This document shows, one piece after another, positions 2,361 to 14,633 of a stretch of 64,000 nt of DNA. The position numbers and the translations under genes are program-made. The stretch is from Adlercreutzia sp. ZJ304. Lineage in GTDB: Bacteria; Actinomycetota; Coriobacteriia; Coriobacteriales; Eggerthellaceae. Location: assembly GCF_011039075.1 (NCBI RefSeq), contig NZ_JAAKEG010000002.1, forward strand, positions 1-64,000, in the 5' to 3' direction. Within the stretch, counting starts at the first letter, position 1. Every line of letters begins with the position of its first letter. Below the pieces are notes generated by a model, which did no database searches, was not told where the DNA came from, and saw only the letters and a list, made by a program, of their open reading frames with translations.

Positions 2361-3284
2361 TCATAGAAAACTATTCTCTAGTACATCTACAGCTATCTTT
2401 ACATTATTTAATAACCCATTCCTAGAATCATTATGTACGAATAAAATGACGAAAAGCCCCCGAATTCTAAATGATATTTTTTTTAGCAATTTATATCTAT
2501 TTAGCAATTCTGGATAAAACTTCTTAATAAATACAAGTTCATTTTCCTGCATTTTTCTGAACTTATGGTAACTCATATTTTGCAGTTCGCTAACACCACC
2601 AATATGAATTACTTTTTTATCAGGAAATATAACTGTATGTTTCCCAAGCAAAGTACTCATTTTTATACAAAGATCCATATCTTCTGTATACATATAATAA
2701 TCTTTGCTAAATCCATCTATAGCTTTTATATCCATCGTTCGCGAATATAAAGCAGCACCCATAAGCCAATCTACTATACAAGGCGTATCGTATATATAAT
2801 AGAATGGAGTATATTTTCTTTTTAACCTTTTTGGTAAAAACCTTCCTATTCCCAAGTTTCGAATAAACGTATTAAAAGGACGCTCGAAAGTGCTGACTGA
2901 TGGTTGCATGGTTCCATCTGGATTCAAAAGAGCAGGTCCCACAATACCAACACTCTTATTTTTACAAAAGTATGAGACAATATCCCCGCTGATACTTTCA
3001 ATTAAAACTGTATCTGGATTTAAAAAGCAAACATATTCAGTGTGTACATATTCCAATCCTCTGTTATTACCCTCCGCAAAACCAACATTGCTGTCTTGTT
3101 CAATCAGAGTAATGTTTCCATCAAACTTGTCTTTTAGTAATTCAATGGTTGAGTCTGTGGAACAATTATCCACAACAACAATTGATGAACCAGATTCGTA
3201 TTCCAAAATGGAATCAACGCAGTTGACTATCGTATTCTCATTATTCCAAGTTACAATAATGTAGGTTAAATTATCGATATGAAT
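2361..3284 (-). CDS. GT2 family glycosyltransferase (rhamnosyltransferase-like)
   Basis: A WbbL-like GT2 enzyme of about 307 residues that would transfer a nucleotide-activated sugar to a lipid-linked oligosaccharide at the cytoplasmic face. Visible motifs in order are YIIVTWNNENTI (Rossmann start), VDNCSTDST, CFLNPDTVL (the metal-binding DxD equivalent), and LLNPDGTMQPS, the last typical of rhamnosyltransferases. The conserved N-terminus lies upstream of the first ATG/GTG/TTG (TTG at 3206), and the frame is open back to a stop with no ordinary start; an ATT codon at 3284-3282 just after a purine-rich AAAAGAG is the likeliest start, overlapping the preceding gene by 19 nt. It is the last gene of the minus-strand polysaccharide operon, directly before IS debris, so genes beyond it may have been lost. 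Strongly AT-rich compared with the NusG genes upstream. Confidence 0.8.
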   Translation of the reverse strand: MHIDNLTYIIVTWNNENTIVNCVDSILEYESGSSIVVVDNCSTDSTIELLKDKFDGNITLIEQDSNVGFAEGNNRGLEYVHTEYVCFLNPDTVLIESISGDIVSYFCKNKSVGIVGPALLNPDGTMQPSVSTFERPFNTFIRNLGIGRFLPKRLKRKYTPFYYIYDTPCIVDWLMGAALYSRTMDIKAIDGFSKDYYMYTEDMDLCIKMSTLLGKHTVIFPDKKVIHIGGVSELQNMSYHKFRKMQENELVFIKKFYPELLNRYKLLKKISFRIRGLFVILFVHNDSRNGLLNNVKIAVDVLENSFL

Positions 3285-4543
3285 CTCTTTTCGCTTTTGC
3301 AGCCAACAAAAGAAACAGTAAAATGTTTTCGGGCATCACTATTTTTATTTATTATAAATGCAAACAGTGTTACATATAAAGTTAACTGATACAAAGGATA
3401 CGTCAGCACATTATCAGTCATAAATATTGCTACCGTCACAATCATTAATGTAGACGCAAATATATAGCATCGATTCCCAAAATATCTTTTTATCGAATAG
3501 GGAAATATAATCAAAATAAAAATAAACCAAGCCCAAAAACCCCAGAAACCTGTTTCTATATATATTTGAAGGATACTATTGTGAAGATAATCAAAATCAT
3601 TGACCAGTTCACTACCAAGTCCAGCATTCATATATTGATGAATATATTGGAATCCTTTGCCGAAATACACCGGTGTAATATCATACTGATCGGTGAACCA
3701 TTCATAAACTTCGATTCTGCCCATACTATTTATTGCAAAATAATTCGCTATGTTTCCTAATATCCCACTATGAATAATACATACATATGCATAAGAACCT
3801 ATAAGTACACAAATTGCCGAGATAAAAACAACCGAGATGCGATTTCTTTCATCCCTCGTAATCCTGTAAATTAAAAAGCAAAATATCCCCACGCAAAGAC
3901 CCATTAACGCACTCCGCTTGCCGCAAATAAAAAGAATTAACATAAGCGCCAATAGTACAGCTATACAAATCCGCTTATTAGAGTTTCCCATTTCTTTAAA
4001 TTTAAATATCAAAAAAATAACCAGAGGCACAACCGATACCCCTACATCATGCTTTTCGAACCAAACTGAACTAATTAAATTAGAGCCCGACAAATACAAT
4101 ATGAACCCATTTAGCCCAACAGACAAAAATCCTACAAACAAAGATAGCGCATATGACAAACATATGGCCGCAATCATTATCAATATAGATTTCGTCTTAA
4201 AGACAGACACAAGACAGTATGCTGCCAGCATATCCACTATTAAATAGATGGTAGTAGTAATCGCCTGAATAGTAATGTTTAATTCATCACCAACTAAAAA
4301 ATACATAGAAACAGTACCTATTGCTGCAATCACAAAAGGAGCGTAAGCAAGATTCGCAATAAGGAACATTCGATTTAGAACTAAGTTGTATCTATCTCGC
4401 ATAATAAATACGAAAATACCTACTATCGCAAGCAGTATCCATAATGCTTTCTGTAAAATCGCCTGATTAGGAATAGATAGCTCGCATACAATTGCAACAG
4501 CAATAACAAGCGATAACACACATATTTTTCTCGATAATGGCAT
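3266..4543 (-). CDS. O-antigen polymerase/ligase-like membrane protein (Wzy/WaaL type)
   Basis: A 425-residue polytopic membrane protein with about ten to twelve hydrophobic segments. Between them is a larger loop containing GKRSALMG around the middle and, toward the C-terminus, a periplasm-type loop GKGFQYIHQYMNAGLG followed by YLHNSILQIYIETGFWGF. The H-N-S-x-L-x-x-x-x-E-x-G pattern is typical of the Wzy_C/O-antigen ligase superfamily that polymerises or ligates undecaprenyl-linked repeat units outside the membrane. Placement among glycosyltransferases supports Wzy; ligase cannot be excluded by sequence. Its 3' end overlaps the following GT2 gene. Confidence 0.8.
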   Translation of the reverse strand: MPLSRKICVLSLVIAVAIVCELSIPNQAILQKALWILLAIVGIFVFIMRDRYNLVLNRMFLIANLAYAPFVIAAIGTVSMYFLVGDELNITIQAITTTIYLIVDMLAAYCLVSVFKTKSILIMIAAICLSYALSLFVGFLSVGLNGFILYLSGSNLISSVWFEKHDVGVSVVPLVIFLIFKFKEMGNSNKRICIAVLLALMLILFICGKRSALMGLCVGIFCFLIYRITRDERNRISVVFISAICVLIGSYAYVCIIHSGILGNIANYFAINSMGRIEVYEWFTDQYDITPVYFGKGFQYIHQYMNAGLGSELVNDFDYLHNSILQIYIETGFWGFWAWFIFILIIFPYSIKRYFGNRCYIFASTLMIVTVAIFMTDNVLTYPLYQLTLYVTLFAFIINKNSDARKHFTVSFVGCKSEKRFISII

Positions 4544-4606: not shown

Positions 4607-5923
4607 TTAGGATTGATATTGTCGTTTTACACACACGCAATGTGTTTCCATATCATATTTCTTCTTATCGAGTACTGTTGCTTTAGCTATATTGCCATTA
4701 ATTAGATCAACTAAAACTCGCGCCAAAGAAACTGGATTCCCGCTCTCAAATATTAGATCTTTTGGAACCAAATCCTTTGCCCCAACCGTATCAGAGCACA
4801 CCACTGGAACTCCAGACAATAAAGCTTCAAGAGTAATGAAACTAAACGTTTCTGGCCATACGGATGGCACTATAACAACATCCAAATCCCGAAATACTGA
4901 CATCTCGTCCGAAAAGCAGTAAGAACCTTTATCGATTATTCTCTCATCATCAATAAAGTCACCATAGTCATCTCCATAAAGAAATAGCTTCCATTTGATT
5001 CTATAATGATCTAAATAATAGAGAGCATCTAATAATATATTTAATCCTTTGCATGGATTCGTACCGCCCATATAACCTAATACCACTTCATTGTTCCTCG
5101 CATTAGATCTATCTAGACAGCAATTCGGAAGAAAGTCATGTGTTATAGGCAGATAAACGGATTCAATTGATGGAAAGTATTTGAAATAAATAGATTTAGT
5201 CAATTCGCTGTTACAAAGCAACTTATCCATAAGAAGCATAGTTCTCGTATAGTAATTTAATAGTTTTTGATACTCTTCAACAATCTCCAAAGAAACAACA
5301 TCTTTGTTGCATCTATCTATCATTAGGTTTTTCGCTCTATTATTAATTCTTTTCATAAACGATGTTTGCTTAAGCGATTTATACATTTGCGACTGCATAA
5401 TAAAACTACTTGTTTTCGTTATTCCGCTTTTAAAATTACAATTGGCACACTTTTCCCCAGAAGGTCCATCACATAAAATTCCATCAACATTCACAAAACA
5501 ACATCGAAGACATATCGGATAGTAATCATGCGTTGTAAAGACAATGCGAATGCCCATTTTATGTGCTAATTCAAAAAACTCCTTATGAATTCCCATAATA
5601 CTATGTACATGGATAACATCAGGACTCCATAACTCTAAAAGAGTTTTATAAGATGGACTATCAGCTGTTTCCATGAAAGAGCATGGATTCCCTATCCCGA
5701 AAGTTAAAGCGACAGGCAAAGGATTAACCACTTCAAAAACCTTGATTCCGCCAAAATAATTTTGCTTTATTGTTGTATTTTTACCTATTTTATGTGAGCC
5801 CGGAAATAATAGCGCAACTTCATCACCAGCTTTTTGCTGGGCATTGATTAAATCCATGCAGTATCTAACAAGACCGCCTTTCCTTAATGGAGGTAAACCT
5901 ATAGACACATGAAGAATTTTCAA
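4607..5923 (-). CDS. GT4 family glycosyltransferase
   Basis: A 438-residue retaining glycosyltransferase of the GT-B fold. The N-terminal domain begins MKILHVSIGLPPLRKGGLVR, the classic GT4 glycine-rich start, with DVIHVHS near residue 115 and a Cys-rich insert (CLRCCFVN, CDGPSGEKCANCN) around residues 155-180 that resembles the cysteine cluster seen in some GT4 proteins. The C-terminal donor-binding domain has LGYMGGTNPCKGLNILLDAL and the E-x7-E region PSVWPETFSFITLEALLSG. It starts with TTG (5923-5921) overlapping the upstream stop in TTGA, so it is translationally coupled to the gene before it. Donor and acceptor sugars cannot be read from sequence. Confidence 0.85.
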   Translation of the reverse strand: MKILHVSIGLPPLRKGGLVRYCMDLINAQQKAGDEVALLFPGSHKIGKNTTIKQNYFGGIKVFEVVNPLPVALTFGIGNPCSFMETADSPSYKTLLELWSPDVIHVHSIMGIHKEFFELAHKMGIRIVFTTHDYYPICLRCCFVNVDGILCDGPSGEKCANCNFKSGITKTSSFIMQSQMYKSLKQTSFMKRINNRAKNLMIDRCNKDVVSLEIVEEYQKLLNYYTRTMLLMDKLLCNSELTKSIYFKYFPSIESVYLPITHDFLPNCCLDRSNARNNEVVLGYMGGTNPCKGLNILLDALYYLDHYRIKWKLFLYGDDYGDFIDDERIIDKGSYCFSDEMSVFRDLDVVIVPSVWPETFSFITLEALLSGVPVVCSDTVGAKDLVPKDLIFESGNPVSLARVLVDLINGNIAKATVLDKKKYDMETHCVCVKRQYQS

Positions 5924-7137
5924 AACGAACCTTGAATCATAAGGTGAAACAAAGAACTATACTCATCATCAATATGGTGCCAAGAGTATTTCGCTTCAAC
6001 TCTTGACATCGGATTGTTTAATGATATTTTCTCGGTATCTTTAAAATGCAAATCAATACCATCTATCAAACTATTTAGAGAAGCAATTTCTTTCTCCCAA
6101 TATAATGCAGTGTTCTCTGCTACTTCTCTATTGAATCCGACATCTAAAAGAAGATTTAACTTAGTAGATGCAAGCGCCTCTAACAAACTCGGGTTTGTGC
6201 CTCCAACTTCATGACCGTGTATATATGCAAAAGCCTTCTCTCGTATCTTCTTTAGGAGGTCTTGGTCATAAACCGTTCCTACAAATTTGATTCTTGGGTC
6301 ATTAGAGAAATGTAGTTTGTTTTCTAATTCACTTAAAAATGAGCCTTCAGCTTTTGTGATTATTACTAAATCGCGTTTAGTGTTTGAAGCCATGAATTCA
6401 CGAATTATAGTTTCGTAATTATTTTCAGGAACAAAACGTCCTACTACTAAATAGTAGTTATCAGGAGTAAGTTCGTTTTTGTTTAGCCACTCTACAAATA
6501 CAGGTGAGTCATCTTTTAAAGGGGATGGCGTTGTATCTGCACCATATGCAATATAGGTAGTTTTTGGGTTGTATTTAGAGTATTCACGCTGAATATATGC
6601 TTCTATGGTTTTACTGTCGCAGATAACCAGATCAGCATGTTTAATCATTCCTTTTTCTGAAATCTTCCAATATCGCTTTACCGGAGCACTCCATTTTGCA
6701 CGCATCCATTCATGTCCATCAGGATTGACAAAAACTTTGCCTCCTAATTCATGAATCCGTTTTACATAATGACCAATGAATGGTCCTATTCGACATGCAA
6801 GAATATAGATTATTGGATGCTTGATATTTTCTTTTTCAATATAATTAAGAGACCACTTAAGAGCATCAAGGTCATAGGTAATTGCTCTAGCAGCACCAAT
6901 AGGGCGCCACTCTATACAAAAGCAATGTGCGCCATTGTATTCATATTCTCTTTCTTTGGGCATTTTATCTACAGCACAAGCCACATGATACTGAATGTCT
7001 TTAGATACCTGATATTCAGTAAGCTTCTCAACAAAGGTTTCAAAACCGCCATATTTAGCGGGAATACCCTTTGACCCTATTATGAAAACATGCTGGGTGT
7101 CTAAAGACTCTTTCAACTGATTAGTAAGCTCCGTCAC
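5920..7137 (-). CDS. GT4 glycosyltransferase with DUF1972 N-domain (rhamnosyltransferase-like)
   Basis: A 405-residue GT-B enzyme. The N-terminus HVFIIGSKGIPAKYGGFETF is the signature of the DUF1972 group, whose characterised members (Cps2T of pneumococcus) add beta-1,4-rhamnose as the second sugar of the repeat unit. The C-terminal half has VVGRFVPENNYETIIREF and the region HEVGGTNPSLLEALAS, replacing the usual E-x7-E motif. It starts with GTG 17 nt inside the end of the upstream sugar-phosphate transferase gene, so the two are coupled. Position directly after the initiating transferase agrees with a second-sugar role; a dTDP-rhamnose donor would come from rmlABCD at 44-48 kb (inference). 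Confidence 0.85.
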   Translation of the reverse strand: MTELTNQLKESLDTQHVFIIGSKGIPAKYGGFETFVEKLTEYQVSKDIQYHVACAVDKMPKEREYEYNGAHCFCIEWRPIGAARAITYDLDALKWSLNYIEKENIKHPIIYILACRIGPFIGHYVKRIHELGGKVFVNPDGHEWMRAKWSAPVKRYWKISEKGMIKHADLVICDSKTIEAYIQREYSKYNPKTTYIAYGADTTPSPLKDDSPVFVEWLNKNELTPDNYYLVVGRFVPENNYETIIREFMASNTKRDLVIITKAEGSFLSELENKLHFSNDPRIKFVGTVYDQDLLKKIREKAFAYIHGHEVGGTNPSLLEALASTKLNLLLDVGFNREVAENTALYWEKEIASLNSLIDGIDLHFKDTEKISLNNPMSRVEAKYSWHHIDDEYSSLFHLMIQGSF

Positions 7138-7834
7138 CTTTAACCATGATTAGAGCAGTTTTGCCGATAATTTTTAGATCGGTTATAGGGGACGCATCGT
7201 TTATGTAGTCGATATCTAGATTTACCATGTCGTTGAATGTAAGGTCACTTCTGCCACTTATTTGCCAATAGCCTGAAAGTCCCGGTTTTACTGTTAGGCG
7301 AAGACGGTCACGCTCTGTATACTCAGCTACTTCACTTGGAAGAGGAGGACGAGGTCCTACACAAGAAAGCTGTCCTAGAAATACATTTAGAAACTGAGGC
7401 AGTTCATCTATTGAATGTTTTCTAATGAAGTGCCCTACACGAGTAACACGTGGGTCATCTTTAATCTTAAACAGAGGTCCTGTTGCTTCGTTTTTATCTT
7501 TTAGATTAGGTAGTAGTTCATCTGCACTAGGTATCATGCTTCTAAACTTATACATCTTAAAAGGCTTCTCGCCTCTACCTAGTCTAGTTTGAGAATAAAT
7601 TGGACTTGCCCCCGGAGAATCTATAACTATTGCAATAGATAATATTAGCGCTGGTACAAACCCAACTACTATAACTGCACTGCTAAACACAATATCGAAT
7701 GTGCGCTTTATGAAGCGGTATGGTAGGGGTTGGGTGCGAACGTTGGTGTTGGCATCGGCACCTACACACGTTGGGTTCGCAAGCAATTCTGCTGCCGCTG
7801 CGTTATCTATTTGATTATCAAAAGTTTCTTGCAA
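7121..7834 (-). CDS. Initiating sugar-phosphate transferase (bacterial sugar transferase family)
   Basis: A 237-residue short-form polyprenyl-phosphate sugar-1-phosphate transferase (PF02397). After a variable N-terminus a single hydrophobic re-entrant helix (FDIVFSSAVIVVGFVPALIL, residues about 47-66) is followed by the catalytic core: GEKPFKMYKFRSM, HSIDELPQFLNVFLGQLS, VGPRPPLPSEV and KPGLSGYWQISGRSDLTF. All family hallmark residues (KFRSM, DELPQ, GPRP, PGLxGxWQ) are intact. It would transfer galactose- or glucose-1-phosphate, or similar, to undecaprenyl phosphate and start the repeat unit. The best start is TTG at 7834-7832 behind AAAGAAAAGA. It lacks the four-helix N-terminal domain of WbaP/WcaJ proteins. 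It follows the third NusG-like gene after only 24 nt. Confidence 0.92.
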   Translation of the reverse strand: MQETFDNQIDNAAAAELLANPTCVGADANTNVRTQPLPYRFIKRTFDIVFSSAVIVVGFVPALILSIAIVIDSPGASPIYSQTRLGRGEKPFKMYKFRSMIPSADELLPNLKDKNEATGPLFKIKDDPRVTRVGHFIRKHSIDELPQFLNVFLGQLSCVGPRPPLPSEVAEYTERDRLRLTVKPGLSGYWQISGRSDLTFNDMVNLDIDYINDASPITDLKIIGKTALIMVKGDGAY

Positions 7835-7858: not shown

Positions 7859-8410
7859 TTACTCCGGGAGAATACCCAGACCAACGGTGGTTTTTATCCT
7901 TATGGAACCCACATGGAACTCCAACAACGCTAGGCTGTCGGAGCGTTTCACTTTCGTAATGCGCCCTTCGTAACCCTTAAGCGGACCCTGTGTCACTTCC
8001 AGCGTATCGCCCACTTTGCGACCAAAGCTCATAGGGACCACGCGGTCGCCGCGGCTAGTGTGGGCTTCCAGCCATGTGCGCTCGTAAGCGTTCAAAGGAA
8101 CATACGTCTGACCACTCTTAACCACTCGGCAAAAATCATTCACACGGCGCAAGCGCTGCGCCAGCTGAACAGGATCATTAACAGCAGCTATAAGATAGCC
8201 CGGCATCAGGGCTCGCTCCACATTTCGCCACTCGCCATACATTTTCTTTTGTGTGCGGTAGCGGGGCGCGAAGCATTCATCTAGTACAAGTGGCTCCTGC
8301 AAGTCGGCAGATTCTTCGTCATCCTCTGCACACGCAGTTTCGATAAACTGTATCATCTTGCGCTCTTGTCCAGACATAACCTGCACCGCATACCAGTCGA
8401 AATGGGGCAT
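7859..8410 (-). CDS. NusG-like transcription antiterminator (LoaP-type), third of three
   Basis: A specialised NusG paralog of 183 residues that should travel with RNA polymerase and suppress termination in the long polysaccharide operon. The NusG N-terminal domain starts FDWYAVQVMSGQERKMIQ, has RYRTQKKMYGEWRNVERALMPG (basic loop and the GY at the end of the NGN core) and a C-terminal KOW domain: GDTLEVTQGPLKGYEGRITK. I chose ATG 8410 because it has AAGGAAGGA nine bases upstream and begins immediately before the conserved WYAVQV; a longer TTG start at 8452 is less convincing. It is the closest to a canonical LoaP of the three paralogs and sits just before the sugar transferase. Confidence 0.85.
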   Translation of the reverse strand: MPHFDWYAVQVMSGQERKMIQFIETACAEDDEESADLQEPLVLDECFAPRYRTQKKMYGEWRNVERALMPGYLIAAVNDPVQLAQRLRRVNDFCRVVKSGQTYVPLNAYERTWLEAHTSRGDRVVPMSFGRKVGDTLEVTQGPLKGYEGRITKVKRSDSLALLEFHVGSIRIKTTVGLGILPE

Positions 8411-8470
8411 AGCTTCGCTATTCCTTCCTTCAAAGGTTTCAGGGGTCTTCAACGAACATAGCTTCGCTAT
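8408..8470. repeat. Two copies of a 14-nt self-complementary motif at a NusG-like start
   Basis: CATAGCTTCGCTAT occurs at 8408-8421 and 8457-8470, 49 bp apart. Each can fold as ATAGC-TTC-GCTAT. On the coding (minus) strand the first copy ends exactly in the ATG of the LoaP-type gene, so a folded leader would include the start codon and the spacing from the ribosome binding site. A regulatory role is inference. Confidence 0.5.
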
Positions 8471-8588
8471 GGTCGCCTAGACCTGTTTGGTCAAACGTAT
8501 TGTTCCCGCACCTGCAAGCCCTCTGTGGAAGGAGCTGCTCGCAAGGCTTCCCGGGAGTATGTAGTTTTGAGGTTGCTGCCGAAAAAGC

Positions 8589-8648
8589 AGCTTCCTACGG
8601 CGGAGGCACGCCTGCGCTCCCGCCGTAGGAAGCTGGCATACGCCAGCT
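8589..8648. repeat. Strong hairpins between second and third NusG-like genes
   Basis: AGCTTCCTACGGCGG at 8589-8603 pairs perfectly with CCGCCGTAGGAAGCT at 8620-8634 (15-bp stem, 16-nt loop), and a second stem AGCTGGC/GCCAGCT (8631-8637/8642-8648) shares its first four bases, so the two are mutually exclusive in part. On the transcribed strand there is no U-run after them, so they are not ordinary intrinsic terminators. Given three antiterminator genes around them, a recognition hairpin for a NusG-like protein or an attenuator is a fair hypothesis. Confidence 0.6.
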
Positions 8649-8653
8649 TCGCC

Positions 8654-9247
8654 TCAGGTGGTTGCCGCTACAGCAATCTGCGGCGCTAAAGTTTGCGCAT
8701 TAGCCCGCGACCCTGCCTTCGCCATTGCGGCACCTTCGCGCTGGCGTGTAACGCGCAGACCCATACGAGCTTCCACCTCATGTCCTGCTACGCTCATGTG
8801 CACATAGGCGCGCTTGCCGCGATGGCTTATGCGACGGATTAAATCTTCGTGTCCGCAAAGCGGTCCGTTTATCACCGTAACTTCGCCGCCTTTCCCGACA
8901 AATCCTTCTGAAAAGCCGACAACACGGCATCCCGGACGCGTCAGCGCATCGATAAGCGCGACCTCAGCATCTGCCATCTGTGCGGCACCGGGTCGGGAAG
9001 TAAGCACCTCGTCAACACCGCGAGCGTGCCGTAAAGCGGCTCGCACCTCGTGTCTGCCGGGTGCCACAGCCACAACAACACCGGGGATCAGAGGCTCTGC
9101 GCTCTCGACCATTTTTCCGCCGCGTACCGTGCGTGTTACTGCGCTCGGTACGAACAGCTCTTGAAGACTGTCAGCTGCGGCGGTGCCCCGCAAGAGTGAT
9201 AGCGCCTCTTGCTCGCAGCCCTGTTTCACATTTATCGCGAACCACAT
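8654..9247 (-). CDS. NusG-like antiterminator, second of three
   Basis: A 197-residue divergent NusG paralog. N-terminal NGN-like domain: MWFAINVKQGCEQEALSLL, then LQELFVPSAV, then PLIPGVVVAVAPG (corresponding to the P-G-Y at the end of the NGN core). C-terminal KOW: GKGGEVTVINGPLCGHEDLIRRI. A 25-residue alanine-rich tail beyond the KOW domain is unusual. The start ATG at 9247 lies 10 nt after the stop of the upstream paralog, so it is co-transcribed and probably coupled. Markedly GC-richer than the glycosyltransferase genes it precedes. Sequence identity to its two neighbours is low apart from domain motifs, so it is an old duplication or independent acquisition. Confidence 0.75.
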   Translation of the reverse strand: MWFAINVKQGCEQEALSLLRGTAAADSLQELFVPSAVTRTVRGGKMVESAEPLIPGVVVAVAPGRHEVRAALRHARGVDEVLTSRPGAAQMADAEVALIDALTRPGCRVVGFSEGFVGKGGEVTVINGPLCGHEDLIRRISHRGKRAYVHMSVAGHEVEARMGLRVTRQREGAAMAKAGSRANAQTLAPQIAVAATT

Positions 9248-9257
9248 GCCAGTTGCC

Positions 9258-9845
9258 CTAACTCTTGAAGGGAACTTCTATGGGCATGAACTCGGTGAAC
9301 CCGCGTCCGCCATCGCCCACTCGCACCACACAGCAGCGCTTGTGGCGGTCAATCTTGCTAACGCGCGCTTCCTGACCTACCAGAGGACCGCTCTGCACAC
9401 GCAACTGCCCATTCGCTATTACTGCAGTACTGTTGCGCAGGATTCGCTTGTCGTCTAAGGCAGACTCGAACCACGCTTGGGCTTCTATCGATAGCGGTGT
9501 CGGGCGCATACTGCGCGCGCCGGCAACTTCGACAGGAAAACTTAGGCGGGAAATGGAGCGTGCCAGCGCACGTCCGTCGCGCGACACGGCAAAGAAATAG
9601 CCACTATATATCGGCGCGGATTCTAAACGCCAAACACCACCGCGCTTAAACCAGCGTTCCTTACATATTACGAAGGCGTCGTCGAGCAACTCGGGCGCGA
9701 CGACGCCGCGCACCTTTTCGCACGTAGATGCCTCGAGTCCTTCAGGTACGTGTACGAGGTACCAGCGTGCACATCCGCGCAGACTATCGCCTGCATGAAC
9801 GCCACTCAGAAGCCTCTCGGCAGCGACGGCCTTAACTGCTGCCAA
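9258..9845 (-). CDS. NusG-like antiterminator, first of three
   Basis: A 195-residue NusG-family protein. After about 25 residues the NGN-like domain reads RWYLVHVPEGLEASTCEKV, with the basic loop KERWFKRGGVWR and SAPIYSGYFFAVS (the P-G-Y equivalent). The KOW segment is NGQLRVQSGPLVGQEARVSK. TTG at 9845-9843 is the start, preceded by GGGAGGTGAG on the minus strand. It is the first gene of the minus-strand operon and follows the candidate invertible promoter. Three NusG paralogs in a row ahead of one glycan operon is not an arrangement I know as standard. Confidence 0.75.
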   Translation of the reverse strand: MAAVKAVAAERLLSGVHAGDSLRGCARWYLVHVPEGLEASTCEKVRGVVAPELLDDAFVICKERWFKRGGVWRLESAPIYSGYFFAVSRDGRALARSISRLSFPVEVAGARSMRPTPLSIEAQAWFESALDDKRILRNSTAVIANGQLRVQSGPLVGQEARVSKIDRHKRCCVVRVGDGGRGFTEFMPIEVPFKS

Positions 9846-9884: not shown

Positions 9885-9902
9885 CGTGGAGGCTTCTCCA
9901 CG
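9885..9902. promoter_or_regulatory. Leader hairpin upstream of the NusG-like operon
   Basis: CGTGGAG (9885-9891) and CTCCACG (9896-9902) form a perfect 7-bp stem with a GCTT tetraloop. It lies in the leader between the candidate invertible segment and the first NusG-like gene. LoaP-type factors are known to use leader hairpins, so it is a candidate recognition element; this is inference from position only. Confidence 0.4.
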
Positions 9903-9915
9903 CACGAGTGTCACC

Positions 9916-10049
9916 AAAAAGTACACTTTTTGCGAGGTCGTCGCGAAAGGACCTTTTGATTTAATAAAAAGTCAGTTTTCCGGGTGTTGTATGGGAGGGA
10001 GGAGATTTATAATACGATAATTATTGTTGCGTAAAAAAGTGTGCTTTTT
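9916..10049. promoter_or_regulatory. Candidate invertible promoter segment bounded by palindromic sites
   Basis: AAAAAGTACACTTTTT (9916-9931) and AAAAAGTGTGCTTTTT (10034-10049) are near-palindromes 118 bp apart. Read as inverted repeats (second site taken on the minus strand as AAAAAGCACACTTTTT) they match at 15 of 16 positions and share the central dinucleotide AC, as expected for serine-invertase crossover sites. Read as direct repeats the core matches 13 of 16, but both are followed by GCGAG. The enclosed DNA carries a promoter, a serine recombinase gene lies 40 bp away, and the polysaccharide operon begins on the other side. Invertible control of the operon is inferred; a shared operator pair is the alternative. 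Confidence 0.5.
9987..10013 (+). promoter_or_regulatory. Promoter inside the candidate invertible segment, currently pointing away from the operon
   Basis: A perfect -10 hexamer TATAAT at 10008-10013 on the plus strand. The -35 is TTGTAT at 9987-9992 (15-bp spacing) or TGTTGT at 9985-9990 (17-bp). In this orientation it fires toward the 3' end of the recombinase gene, antisense to it, where there is no plus-strand gene to express. After inversion between the flanking palindromes it would fire toward the NusG-like genes. No equally good promoter is seen on the minus strand of this segment, although TATTAT is present there. Confidence 0.45.
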
Positions 10050-10088: not shown

Positions 10089-10706
10089 TTATTTGAAACT
10101 TTCTTTCCCGTCGGACTTCAACCATCTATCAAATGTCGTCGCGCATATTTTGAGGCGGTTGGCAGCCTCTCGCCGGGTGATATGCCCGCTCAAATAAGAC
10201 TGCTTAGTGTCCTCGTAGCATGCGGGTCGCTTCTTTTTCGGTCTGCCGAACTTGACCCCACGAGCGTGCGCCGCCGCTATTCCCTCAGCCTGACGCTGGC
10301 GTATATTCTCGCGCTCGACCTGCGCAACGTAGCTTAAAAGCTGAAGGACAATGTCGGCAATAAACACGCCCGTTATGCTTTCCTGCGTCGCGCGGGTATC
10401 AAGCAGGGGCATGTCTAAAACCACGACACCCACACCCTTTTCCTTGGTGATGGTGCGCCACTCGCTTAGTATTTCCTCGTAGTTGCGCCCAAGTCGGTCG
10501 ATGCTCTTTACAACGAGAACATCACCTTCACACAGAGTTGTCATAAGGCTGCGGTATTCGGGGCGCTCGAAGTTTTTGCCGCTAGCCTTATCTGCAAACA
10601 CTCTCTCTGGCATCACCCCAAATGCTGCAAGCGCGTCGAATTGCCGGTCCAAGTTCTGGTCCTTCGACGATACGCGGGCGTACCCGTACACAACTCTTTC
10701 TTCCAT
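10089..10706 (-). CDS. Serine recombinase / DNA invertase family
   Basis: A 205-residue small serine recombinase. The catalytic domain opens YGYARVSSKDQNLDRQ, with the nucleophile serine in RVSS, and continues with FADKASGKNFERPEYR, GDVLVVKSIDRLGRNYEEIL (the R-x-x-R motif region) and the long E-helix ending ERENIRQRQAEGIAAA. A C-terminal Hin/Pin-type helix-turn-helix follows KFGRPKKK. The length matches Hin/Gin-type invertases and Tn3-type resolvases. ATG 10706 is chosen because GGGAGG lies just upstream; an in-frame extension to 11054 has no family similarity. It sits next to a promoter segment bounded by palindromes and reads toward the polysaccharide operon, which suggests invertase activity on that segment (inference). 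Confidence 0.9.
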   Translation of the reverse strand: MEERVVYGYARVSSKDQNLDRQFDALAAFGVMPERVFADKASGKNFERPEYRSLMTTLCEGDVLVVKSIDRLGRNYEEILSEWRTITKEKGVGVVVLDMPLLDTRATQESITGVFIADIVLQLLSYVAQVERENIRQRQAEGIAAAHARGVKFGRPKKKRPACYEDTKQSYLSGHITRREAANRLKICATTFDRWLKSDGKESFK

Positions 10707-11108
10707 AGAAACCTCCCATCCGACCTGACCTCCATTCCAGGCCTCTTCTCTAGTGAAACGGCGCGATGCCGCCACGCAAGTATTGTTTTGGCGAGAAAAG
10801 CCTCGCGAACAACTGCGCAGCAAGCACTGCAATCTTTTCACTATCCTCCAGACTTGCCATTTCATGTCCTCGTCACCGCAGACGGGGAGCAGGCTGCTGA
10901 GAAACGGTTCTAAATTTGAAAGAGGTATTTGTATAAGAGGGTAAAGTTTATTAACCGATATTGCTCTCGGCGCGCAGATGTGCTCGATACTATTTTTTCG
11001 TAGCTTCATGCGTTCCGTCCCTTCGCGGCTTTCGCAACGGGAGGTGCAATCCATTCATCGGTTCTGCTAAAACTGAAGACTCTGGTAACGCTTAGATAGC
11101 TTTTTATA
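10707..11108. other. Intergenic region upstream of recombinase
   Basis: The minus-strand frame is open through this stretch and could extend the recombinase by about 116 residues, but the predicted sequence has no recognisable domain and the internal ATG has the better ribosome binding site. Nothing else is supported; it should hold the recombinase promoter. Confidence 0.35.
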
Positions 11109-11412: not shown

Positions 11413-11820
11413 ATGTATCTGCTTGATTCTGACATTTGCATCAATCTGATGCGAGGAAATCTGCCGTACACTTATGAATTGATGCGTGCAAGCGAGCCTT
11501 CATTATTTGGTGTATCTGCAATTTCAGAAGCTGAACTTCGTACCGGTGCCAAAAAGAGCAATCATCCAAAGAAGAACAAATTGCTGCTTGAACGTTTCTT
11601 AGCGCCATATAGAATTGTTCCATTTGACAGCGGTTGTGCCATTGAATATGCAAAGATACGAGCCGATCTTGAAAAGCGTGGGCAGAAGATTGGTCCGAAC
11701 GACATGCTTATAGCAGCAACAGCAATTGCAAATAATGCAACATTAATTACTGGCAACACGCGAGAATTTTCGCGCGTGCAAGGTATTGAGTTAGAAAATT
11801 GGGCTGAGGTTAACCTTTGA
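11413..11820 (+). CDS. VapC-like PIN-domain ribonuclease toxin
   Basis: A 135-residue PIN-domain protein, the size typical of VapC. It begins MYLLDSDICINLMRG (first catalytic Asp, and the usual D-x-x), has AISEAELRTGA (conserved Glu of helix 3), and near the end NDMLIAATAIANNATLITGN with the third and fourth acidic/polar positions and the T-x-N-x-x-x-F motif. All four catalytic positions appear intact, so an active Mg-dependent RNase is expected. Target RNA cannot be inferred. Co-operonic with the ribbon-helix-helix antitoxin. Confidence 0.88.
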   Translation: MYLLDSDICINLMRGNLPYTYELMRASEPSLFGVSAISEAELRTGAKKSNHPKKNKLLLERFLAPYRIVPFDSGCAIEYAKIRADLEKRGQKIGPNDMLIAATAIANNATLITGNTREFSRVQGIELENWAEVNL

Positions 11821-12445: not shown

Positions 12446-12530
12446 AACTGTACACATTTGCCTTATTTGTACGAAATCGCTACGCACATCTCTGTAGTCT
12501 TTTGTCAGAAGATTACAGGAGGTGAAAACT

Positions 12531-13613
12531 ATGCATGTTGAAACAAAGAAACTACTGGATTTCTTAGCAGCCGACGGAGCAAAGTTTTCTATACCGCTAT
12601 TCCAAAGACCATACTCTTGGGAGCAATGGCAGTGCGAAATATTCTGGAACGACATTGAGCGAAGCGCTCATGAAAATAAATCACATTTTTTCGGAGCTGT
12701 GTTCTATAGAAAAGATTGCATCGATGAAGAAACTACTTTATCTCTTATCGACGGGCAACAGCGAACCCTAACTTCACTTTTATTGTTGGCTGCGTTGACT
12801 GAACGCGTGGATGCCGCCAACTTTGCGGACACTGATTTGAACAGCGCTTACATTACACAAACATATCTGCGCTCAAACGGCGGCATAAAGGTTCAGCCGT
12901 CTAAGTGTGATGAAGCGGAATTTCTGCGTGCATTAAACGCCGACAAAAGCCAGCAACCAATAGATAGCGAAGATTCCGCAGAACAGCACCACAATGCTAT
13001 AGCCAACAAAGCTTTCTTTGTAGCCAAGATGGCGGCTGCAGATTTCGACCCACTATCTTTTTGGAAAGGGCTTAACAGCTTTGAAGTGGTTGTTGTAGAA
13101 CTTGAAGACGAAGATAACGCGCAGTCTATATTTGAATCGTTTAACTCAAAAGGCGTGCCTTTAGTTGCCGCCGACATGGCAAGAAATTACTTGTTACTGG
13201 CGGAAAGCGAAGAAGAACAAAAAAGGCTGTATGTTAATTACTGGGAGCCAATTCAGGGGCTTTTTGGAGATGACCCCGGCTCTTTGCGCCTGAACAATGC
13301 GCTGCGAGCATGGACTGTAATACGCTGCAAAACACCGAAAGCTAAGAACGATTCTGAATCTTTTAACGATTTCAAACAGTATTTTGTTAATGAATACGAC
13401 GGTACCAGCGAAGACCTTATGGAAGAATTGCTAAGTTTTTGCATAGTGTGGGCTGAAAACTACAGATATCACGCCGTTAAAAAATACCGCAGTTCTAATT
13501 GGGCAAAAATTGGAAGAAAAACCTTGGTTTCTGACAGACCGCTTGCGCCATCTAGTCAGCAAAGTCGCGATTTCTATTCGCAGCATTACGGTATCGAAGT
13601 CAAGGGAGAGTAA
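12531..13613 (+). CDS. DUF262 domain protein, first of tandem pair
   Basis: A 360-residue protein with the DUF262 (GmrS-like ParB/Srx fold) signature: FSIPLFQRPYSWEQWQCEIF near residue 18, then SLIDGQQRTLTSLLLLAAL (the D-G-Q-Q-R motif that binds NTP in GmrSD-type enzymes), and IFESFNSKGVPL. ATG 12531 has AGGAGGTG immediately upstream. The DUF1524/HNH nuclease domain that normally follows in type IV restriction enzymes is absent and the protein is about half the length of GmrSD fusions. The C-terminus ends SRDFYSQHYGIEVKGE. It is 3 nt from the second DUF262 gene. Possibly a reduced phage-defence pair; function unproven. Confidence 0.8.
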   Translation: MHVETKKLLDFLAADGAKFSIPLFQRPYSWEQWQCEIFWNDIERSAHENKSHFFGAVFYRKDCIDEETTLSLIDGQQRTLTSLLLLAALTERVDAANFADTDLNSAYITQTYLRSNGGIKVQPSKCDEAEFLRALNADKSQQPIDSEDSAEQHHNAIANKAFFVAKMAAADFDPLSFWKGLNSFEVVVVELEDEDNAQSIFESFNSKGVPLVAADMARNYLLLAESEEEQKRLYVNYWEPIQGLFGDDPGSLRLNNALRAWTVIRCKTPKAKNDSESFNDFKQYFVNEYDGTSEDLMEELLSFCIVWAENYRYHAVKKYRSSNWAKIGRKTLVSDRPLAPSSQQSRDFYSQHYGIEVKGE

Positions 13614-13616
13614 TTT

Positions 13617-14633
13617 ATGAAAGCTCAAGAGATGCAATTTCTTGATATAGTTGGTCGCCCAAATGTGCAATTCAGCGTGCCCGCATTTCAGCGTGTATAT
13701 TCTTGGACAGCCCGAGAGTGCGAAGATTTGATAGCTGATGTAATGCATGCAGGCGCTACAAACAATGCGCATTTCGTTGGCACTTTTCTATATTCAACTC
13801 CTGACAATTCGCCTGACAAAATAAGCAAACTGCAAGTAATTGATGGTCAGCAGCGCATTACAACATTAACGCTAATGTTAATGGCGTTTGTCGAGTATCT
13901 GAAAACCCAAGGCGATGCCCAAGCGCAACGCGCTCAGCAGCTAACAAAGCGCTTTTTGCTGTGCGACAACGGCGCTCAACCGAAATTACTTTTAACGTCA
14001 ATAGATGAGGATATGCTTGCATATTTGCTTGGAGTGCAAAGCGAGCCAGAAGACATAGCCACTCGTTTAGTTGAAAACTTGGACCTATTTCGCAATAAAA
14101 TGCTGCAACCAGACTTTGACGAAAACACATTCTGGCGCGGCTGCAACTTGCTGCAAATTATAGCTATTGAACTTACCAGCGAAGATTCCCCGCAAGAAGT
14201 GTTCGAGAGCCTGAACTCTAAAGGGAAGCGGCTAGCTATTGAAGACTTAGTTCGCAATACTATTTTGCTTGGAACTTCCAACAAAACTGGCGACGAGGCG
14301 CTGGCTTTGTACGAAAATTATTGGCTGCCATTAGAATACAAGATTGCAGACACTAAAGATATAACTATGGAAGATGTGCTGTGCGCATGGCTGGCGTTTC
14401 ACCATGAAGATGTTTACCTTGATTCAAAAAGCGAAGTGTTCCCGCTATTTAAGGCAGATCTTACAAGTAAATTTAATGGCGACTACAAGCGTCTGTTAGT
14501 TGACCTAGCGGCTTATGCCGACAAATTGGCATCTAGCGAACAATGGCGCAGAAATCAGCTAAGCGAAATGGATAGGTGGCTGCAGGGCAAACCGAAGAAC
14601 ATAATTTCCGAGCGCAAAATGTTTGGCGACTAG
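13617..14633 (+). CDS. DUF262 domain protein, second of tandem pair
   Basis: A 338-residue paralog of the previous gene: FSVPAFQRVYSWTARECEDL, QVIDGQQRITTLTLMLMAF, VFESLNSKGKRLAIEDLVRN. The same three DUF262 motifs are intact, and again no DUF1524 nuclease domain is present. ATG 13617 directly follows the stop of the first gene with a GGGAG ribosome site inside it, so the two are translated together and may form a heteromer. The final residues ISERKMFGD give no domain. The pair resembles the ATPase-like half of GmrSD without the nuclease half. Confidence 0.8.
   Translation: MKAQEMQFLDIVGRPNVQFSVPAFQRVYSWTARECEDLIADVMHAGATNNAHFVGTFLYSTPDNSPDKISKLQVIDGQQRITTLTLMLMAFVEYLKTQGDAQAQRAQQLTKRFLLCDNGAQPKLLLTSIDEDMLAYLLGVQSEPEDIATRLVENLDLFRNKMLQPDFDENTFWRGCNLLQIIAIELTSEDSPQEVFESLNSKGKRLAIEDLVRNTILLGTSNKTGDEALALYENYWLPLEYKIADTKDITMEDVLCAWLAFHHEDVYLDSKSEVFPLFKADLTSKFNGDYKRLLVDLAAYADKLASSEQWRRNQLSEMDRWLQGKPKNIISERKMFGD

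Follow-up and report, generated by a model that had tools for sequence, protein, structure and literature searches.

A candidate recombinase-linked invertible promoter in front of a NusG-glycan operon of Adlercreutzia and its relatives across Coriobacteriales

Introduction

The locus analysed here raises the question whether a short stretch of DNA, flanked by two inverted palindromes and placed between a serine recombinase gene and a polysaccharide operon, can be turned round so as to switch that operon on and off, and which of the two states the assembled sequence represents. It lies in a 64-kb window (i.e. the whole stretch of DNA that was analysed, the first 64,000 nucleotides of contig C24) of the 2.0-Mb genome of Adlercreutzia sp. 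ZJ304, and the original prediction, made from the letters of this window, had read it as a phase-variable promoter caught in its OFF state. In the Hin/Gin family, inversion is carried out by a small serine recombinase on sites with palindromic arms and a matched 2-nt centre. Capsule promoters of Bacteroides fragilis are invertible through the serine recombinase Mpi (PMC5903667), and in Bacteroidales UpxY is found beside invertible promoters, upxY being the first gene of the polysaccharide operon (PMC8748976).

Results

Two matched palindromes bound a 118-bp segment

The segment and its immediate surroundings comprise the following features (window coordinates):

9916-9931, + strand: operon-proximal recombination site, AAAAAGT-AC-ACTTTTT, crossover dinucleotide at 9923-9924; matched inverted cores occur in relatives
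10034-10049, - strand: recombinase-proximal recombination site, AAAAAGC-AC-ACTTTTT, crossover dinucleotide at 10041-10042
9923-10042, strand not applicable: predicted invertible segment, 118 bp from core to core; segments of the same type are inverted between relatives with fixed flanks
9993-10004, + strand: G-rich stretch (GGGGAGGGG-like) 5' of TATAAT, by eye similar in several relatives
10008-10013, + strand: predicted -10 TATAAT, 25 nt from the core that it faces, pointing away from the operon and toward the recombinase
10089-10709, - strand: small serine recombinase of 206 aa, predicted invertase (Pfam Resolvase, E=2.8e-32)

Both 16-bp sites are built of 7-bp arms around the asymmetric central dinucleotide AC and stand in inverted orientation to each other; as originally described, they are palindromic, differ at one of 16 positions in the inverted register, share the centre AC and lie 118 bp apart from core to core. 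The segment 9923-10042 is hence bounded by inverted repeats, as an inverton is. A search of the whole genome for the 16-bp motif, which had been proposed together with the prediction, returned exact AAAAAGTRYRCTTTTT matches at these two sites only, with one further place at no more than one mismatch, and our detector of matched inverted core pairs found exactly one pair in the 64-kb window (9916-9931/10034-10049). Strict paired-core patterns (N{60,90} gap for AC, N{80,110} gap for AG) had no match in the strain's own genome, the window pair being missed by the strict AC pattern because one of its sites reads GCACAC. A point that the first reading had missed is that GCGAG follows 3' of both sites on the + strand (i.e. 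as a direct repeat), and that inversion would join the two GCGAG-flanked half-sites as CTCGCAAAAAGC-AC-ACTTTTTGCGAG. Inside the segment we also observed a terminator-like stem on the + strand (9926-9950), which in the ON orientation would come to lie upstream of the promoter and act as an insulator.

The adjoining recombinase

The gene at 10089-10709 ends (3' end) 39 bp from the nearer site and encodes a Resolvase catalytic domain with its active-site motifs, and the protein could be aligned to Sin and gamma-delta resolvase, inclusive of the YARVS and DRLGR motifs. The 'Hin/Pin-sized serine recombinase 40 bp away' of the original prediction is accordingly a small serine recombinase at 39 bp, the Hin/Pin type being a loose description, as the closest PDB relatives are Sin/Tn552 Bin3 (104 bits), with DNA-invertase entries at 70 bits. 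Against the NCBIfam model for Mpi (NF009949) it scored 52.1 bits, below the cut-off of 272. We infer from its position and from its co-occurrence with the sites (see below) that this enzyme is the agent that flips the segment. The same genome has a second recombinase (C28, 75576-76166; 69% identical), at whose 3' end TTAGAC and GTCTAC, separated by 106 bp, form a degenerate AG pair. Among plasmids, a search for distant matches to the recombinase turned up a single weak one, in a Collinsella record.

Given an enzyme that by sequence is nearest to Sin/Tn552 Bin3 and Tn3-type resolvases, and a transposase remnant elsewhere in the window, one might think of a decayed transposon that left behind its resolvase (the recombinase) and its res site (the two sites), in which case the switch would be incidental or dead. 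We regard this as extremely unlikely: the sites stand in inverted and not in direct orientation, the recombinase gene has no transposase next to it, and the same layout with glycan operons is found repeatedly within the order Coriobacteriales.

Homologous segments are inverted between relatives

A comparison of orientation at the same locus in related genomes, likewise proposed at the outset, revealed inverted interiors between fixed flanks in three near-identical pairs of loci. For L121/L123 the interiors are 94% identical in inverted and 38% in direct alignment (flanks 91/99% direct), for L114/L115 the values are 96% and 46% (flanks 92/96% direct), and for L087/L091 they are 92% and 49% (flanks 95/87% direct), the maximum of the null for interior identity being 58%; several more distant pairs of loci follow the same inverted-interior pattern at 63-76%. 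The inversion junctions fall within the sites, such that the outer arms stay and the inner sequences are swapped. By these alignments the three close pairs are natural inversions between relatives, and homologous segments thus occur in both orientations between fixed flanks among species and genera (as opposed to within one culture), which supports the reading of the locus as a phase-variable promoter. The window's own locus is represented by one orientation, that of the assembled sequence. Contig ends near recombinases (e.g. one contig ending 15 bp past the gene, G087:C76) were considered as a sign of mixed orientations but given no weight, the breaks not being traced to the sites.

These pairs also bear on a rival reading in which no inversion takes place and the palindromes serve as operators: a protein bound to them, be it the recombinase or some other regulator, would hold the DNA in a loop and keep the promoter repressed. 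Such a role would agree with sites that are palindromic, that flank a predicted promoter at helically phased distances and that persist in front of NusG-like genes also at loci lacking an adjacent recombinase; a conserved operator pair was in fact our first reading of two loci with sites but no recombinase (L014/L015) taken alone, and it was dropped after the inverted relatives had been found. It fails because operators give no reason for the intervening DNA to be reverse-complemented while the flanks stay fixed, as happened in the three close pairs, and operators have no need of a matched asymmetric central dinucleotide. As a full explanation for the family it is, on sequence comparison, already refuted, and for the window we deem it very unlikely. 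Neither of the two outcomes that had been named as speaking against the original prediction (a single orientation in all relatives, or conserved operators) was thus encountered.

The predicted -10 keeps its distance from the core in both orientations

The TATAAT at 10008-10013 (+) points away from the NusG-glycosyltransferase operon, as predicted. We found no consensus -35 and no consensus sigma-70 promoter in the window, and the opposite, operon-reading strand carries TATTAT/TATAAA (5/6 matches to TATAAT) over the same bases; since a -10-like reading thus exists on both strands, calling the orientation of the window required relatives. Across 21 AC loci the distance from TATAAT to the core that it faces is 24-27 nt and is kept in both orientations, TATAAT being directed toward the operon in 5 (L115, L117, L119, L123 and L187) and pointing the other way in 16, the window included. 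It is this constancy that argues for TATAAT as the -10 and for OFF as the best reading of the window, in support of the state originally proposed. An early reading of the window as ON, with TATTAT directed toward the operon, was given up in view of the inverted relatives and of these distances. That the inverton is real and the window nonetheless ON, with the - strand TATTAT/TATAAA as its promoter, is a reading that the 5/6 matches on the operon strand would allow but that we judge unlikely: at other AC loci the operon strand usually has TATACA/TATACC (i.e. no good -10) where the opposite strand has TATAAT, and it is TATAAT that faces the operon in the five inverted loci.

At the AG-type NusG loci (L084-L091, L186, L188 and L189) the -10 lies exactly 17 nt from the recombination core TAGACT, a spacing at which the core could double as a -35 element; recombinase binding and transcription initiation would then compete.

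A recurring module in Coriobacteriales

With the NusG-like protein and the recombinase used as queries against 137 genomes of the family, the two genes were found as neighbours in many of them, and in relatives the spacer between them holds an inverted site pair with a matched centre, AC or AG. The module that recurs in the order Coriobacteriales consists of a recombinase, an inverted AC/AG pair on its 3' side and often a LoaP/NusG-like gene with a sugar operon. Class-wide, recombinase homologues were present in 93 of 398 genomes, all 93 of them within the window's order. The strict detector picked up an inverted pair, in every case 3' of the gene, at 40 of the 89 recombinase loci, and 20 rounds of dinucleotide shuffles of the same 89 loci yielded 0 pairs. 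Among the 398 genomes, any site was found in 36 of the 93 that bear a recombinase and in 21 of the 305 others (p=2e-12), and exact inverted pairs in 14 and 0 genomes, respectively (p=7e-10); as the loci are related, these counts and p-values overstate independence, kinship inflating the significance. On a tree of the recombinases, AC and AG loci are more clustered than after shuffling, an effect to which close copies contribute.

The strict detector gave no pair at the remaining 49 of the 89 loci, for which a looser search brought 10 more candidates with other cores, some perhaps due to chance. Inverted repeats with another core (e.g. the perfect TGCAAAAGGTACAGGTTT) were observed at five recombinase loci (L150, L152, L158, L126 and L176) and suggest further site specificities. 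Three loci (L078, L082 and L083) have site pairs with no recombinase nearby, which implies that the recombinase acts in trans there or that the loci are locked.

Measured from core to core, 47 distinct segments fall into groups near 105, 116, 127, 138, 149 and 161 bp, steps that repeat with a period of 10.7-10.9 (Rayleigh p ~1e-14, overstated owing to the kinship of the loci and to the scanning of the period). Such a helical ladder would be expected if a short, stiff piece of DNA had to present both sites in the same direction; more tentatively, segment lengths in whole helical turns might reflect synapsis on the same face of short DNA with no separate enhancer.

The operon downstream

The operon reads leftward from the segment:

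9885-9902, - strand: GC-rich hairpin CGTGGAG-AAGC-CTCCACG, seen on folding the operon leader; lies outside the segment
9258-9845, - strand: first operon gene, NusG/LoaP-like antiterminator, TTG start with GGAGGTGA upstream (LoaP 76.5 bits; no Pfam match)
8654-9247, - strand: second NusG/LoaP-like gene (Pfam NusG 26.2 bits; LoaP 84.1 bits)
7859-8452, - strand: third NusG/LoaP-like gene, with KOW (LoaP 93.4 bits)
7121-7834, - strand: initiating sugar transferase (Bac_transf, E=1.4e-58)
4607-7137, - strand: two glycosyltransferases (DUF1972/GT4 and GT4)
3266-4543, - strand: Wzy-type polymerase/ligase (Pfam Wzy_C 45.8 bits)
2361-3206, - strand: family 2 glycosyltransferase

Three NusG/LoaP-like genes stand in this single operon (7859-9845). 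LoaP is the best NCBIfam model for all three proteins, the scores (76.5, 84.1 and 93.4 bits) lying below its cut-off of 125 (NF033641); the UpxY model (NF033644, cut-off 100) gave 31.9 and 38.8 bits and had no match to the first protein. The leader hairpin is a possible antiterminator target, its loop (AAGC) being different from the UNCG hairpin of the known LoaP RNA element. A NusG paralogue on another contig (C31) had no inverted repeat nearby. Elsewhere in the window we observed a gene for a PIN-domain toxin-like protein, preceded by a small ORF (11413-11820, VapBC-like), two adjacent GmrSD_N (DUF262-type) proteins (12522-14633) and, past the distal end of the glycan operon, an ISL3-family transposase remnant (977-1306).

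Discussion

Taken together, the anatomy of the sites, the conserved module, the inversion of homologous segments between relatives and the fixed position of the predicted -10 are the observed basis on which we consider it very probable that the NusG-glycan operon has its promoter on a site-specific inverton, namely the 118-bp segment. By means of this segment the bacterium, an actinobacterium of gut type, is probably able to switch its surface-polysaccharide operon on and off. In the mechanism that we propose from these sequence features, the serine recombinase encoded 39 bp away would bind the palindromic arms of both sites, cut at the 2-nt AC centre and rejoin the segment in the opposite orientation. 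The assembled state, with TATAAT toward the recombinase, would be OFF; once inverted, TATAAT would be directed at the operon, the leader and then the LoaP-like gene would be transcribed, and the product of that gene may help the polymerase to read through the long sugar operon. We infer that the segment would switch in this strain as well, and the strength of the promoter, the antitermination and the surface phenotype are likewise presumptive.

With the Mpi/UpxY system of Bacteroides fragilis the locus has in common a serine recombinase, a promoter (here a predicted one) set between short inverted repeats and a NusG paralogue as the first gene of a polysaccharide operon, and the likeness to Bacteroides capsule promoters that was initially proposed holds in so far as the locus would work like those capsule switches. 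It differs in belonging to another phylum, in a first gene that is LoaP-like and not UpxY, and in a recombinase far below the Mpi cut-off; as this enzyme and the NusG-like proteins score below the cut-offs for Mpi and LoaP, the window's switch is to be read as like Mpi/UpxY and not as a tested member of either family. Modules of the window's type, in contrast to Mpi, often each have their own recombinase at a fixed place, and their site and promoter sequences are different. With Hin/Gin they share a small serine recombinase, palindromic arms and a matched 2-nt centre, whereas the Coriobacteriales segments are only ~105-160 bp long and helically phased, and the closest solved relatives of the enzyme are Sin/Tn552 Bin3.

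LoaP has been reported from Actinomycetota (PMC12691694), signs of inversion have been noted in 3 of 19 Actinobacteria species (PMC5903667), and the main text of a study that mapped reads from a defined community puts the median number of invertons per Actinobacteriota genome at 14 and names neither Collinsella, Slackia, Eggerthella nor a recombinase-LoaP-glycan module (PMC11892184). In the literature that we searched (few subscription journals, no supplements) we found no description of this module in Coriobacteriales. More tentatively, and with slightly less than even confidence, we suggest that the modules form a recombinase-linked family of promoter switches that spread through Coriobacteriales partly by transfer and whose recombination core can also serve as a promoter element.

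At the strength given above, these findings would place in Coriobacteriales, major gut actinobacteria, a Bacteroides-like, capsule-type ON/OFF switch whose recombinase is distinct and whose antiterminators are LoaP-like, and they provide simple site rules by which switches may be found and tested across the order. Phase variation and specialised NusG proteins would thereby be paired in a second phylum, making the reason for the pairing testable by comparison.
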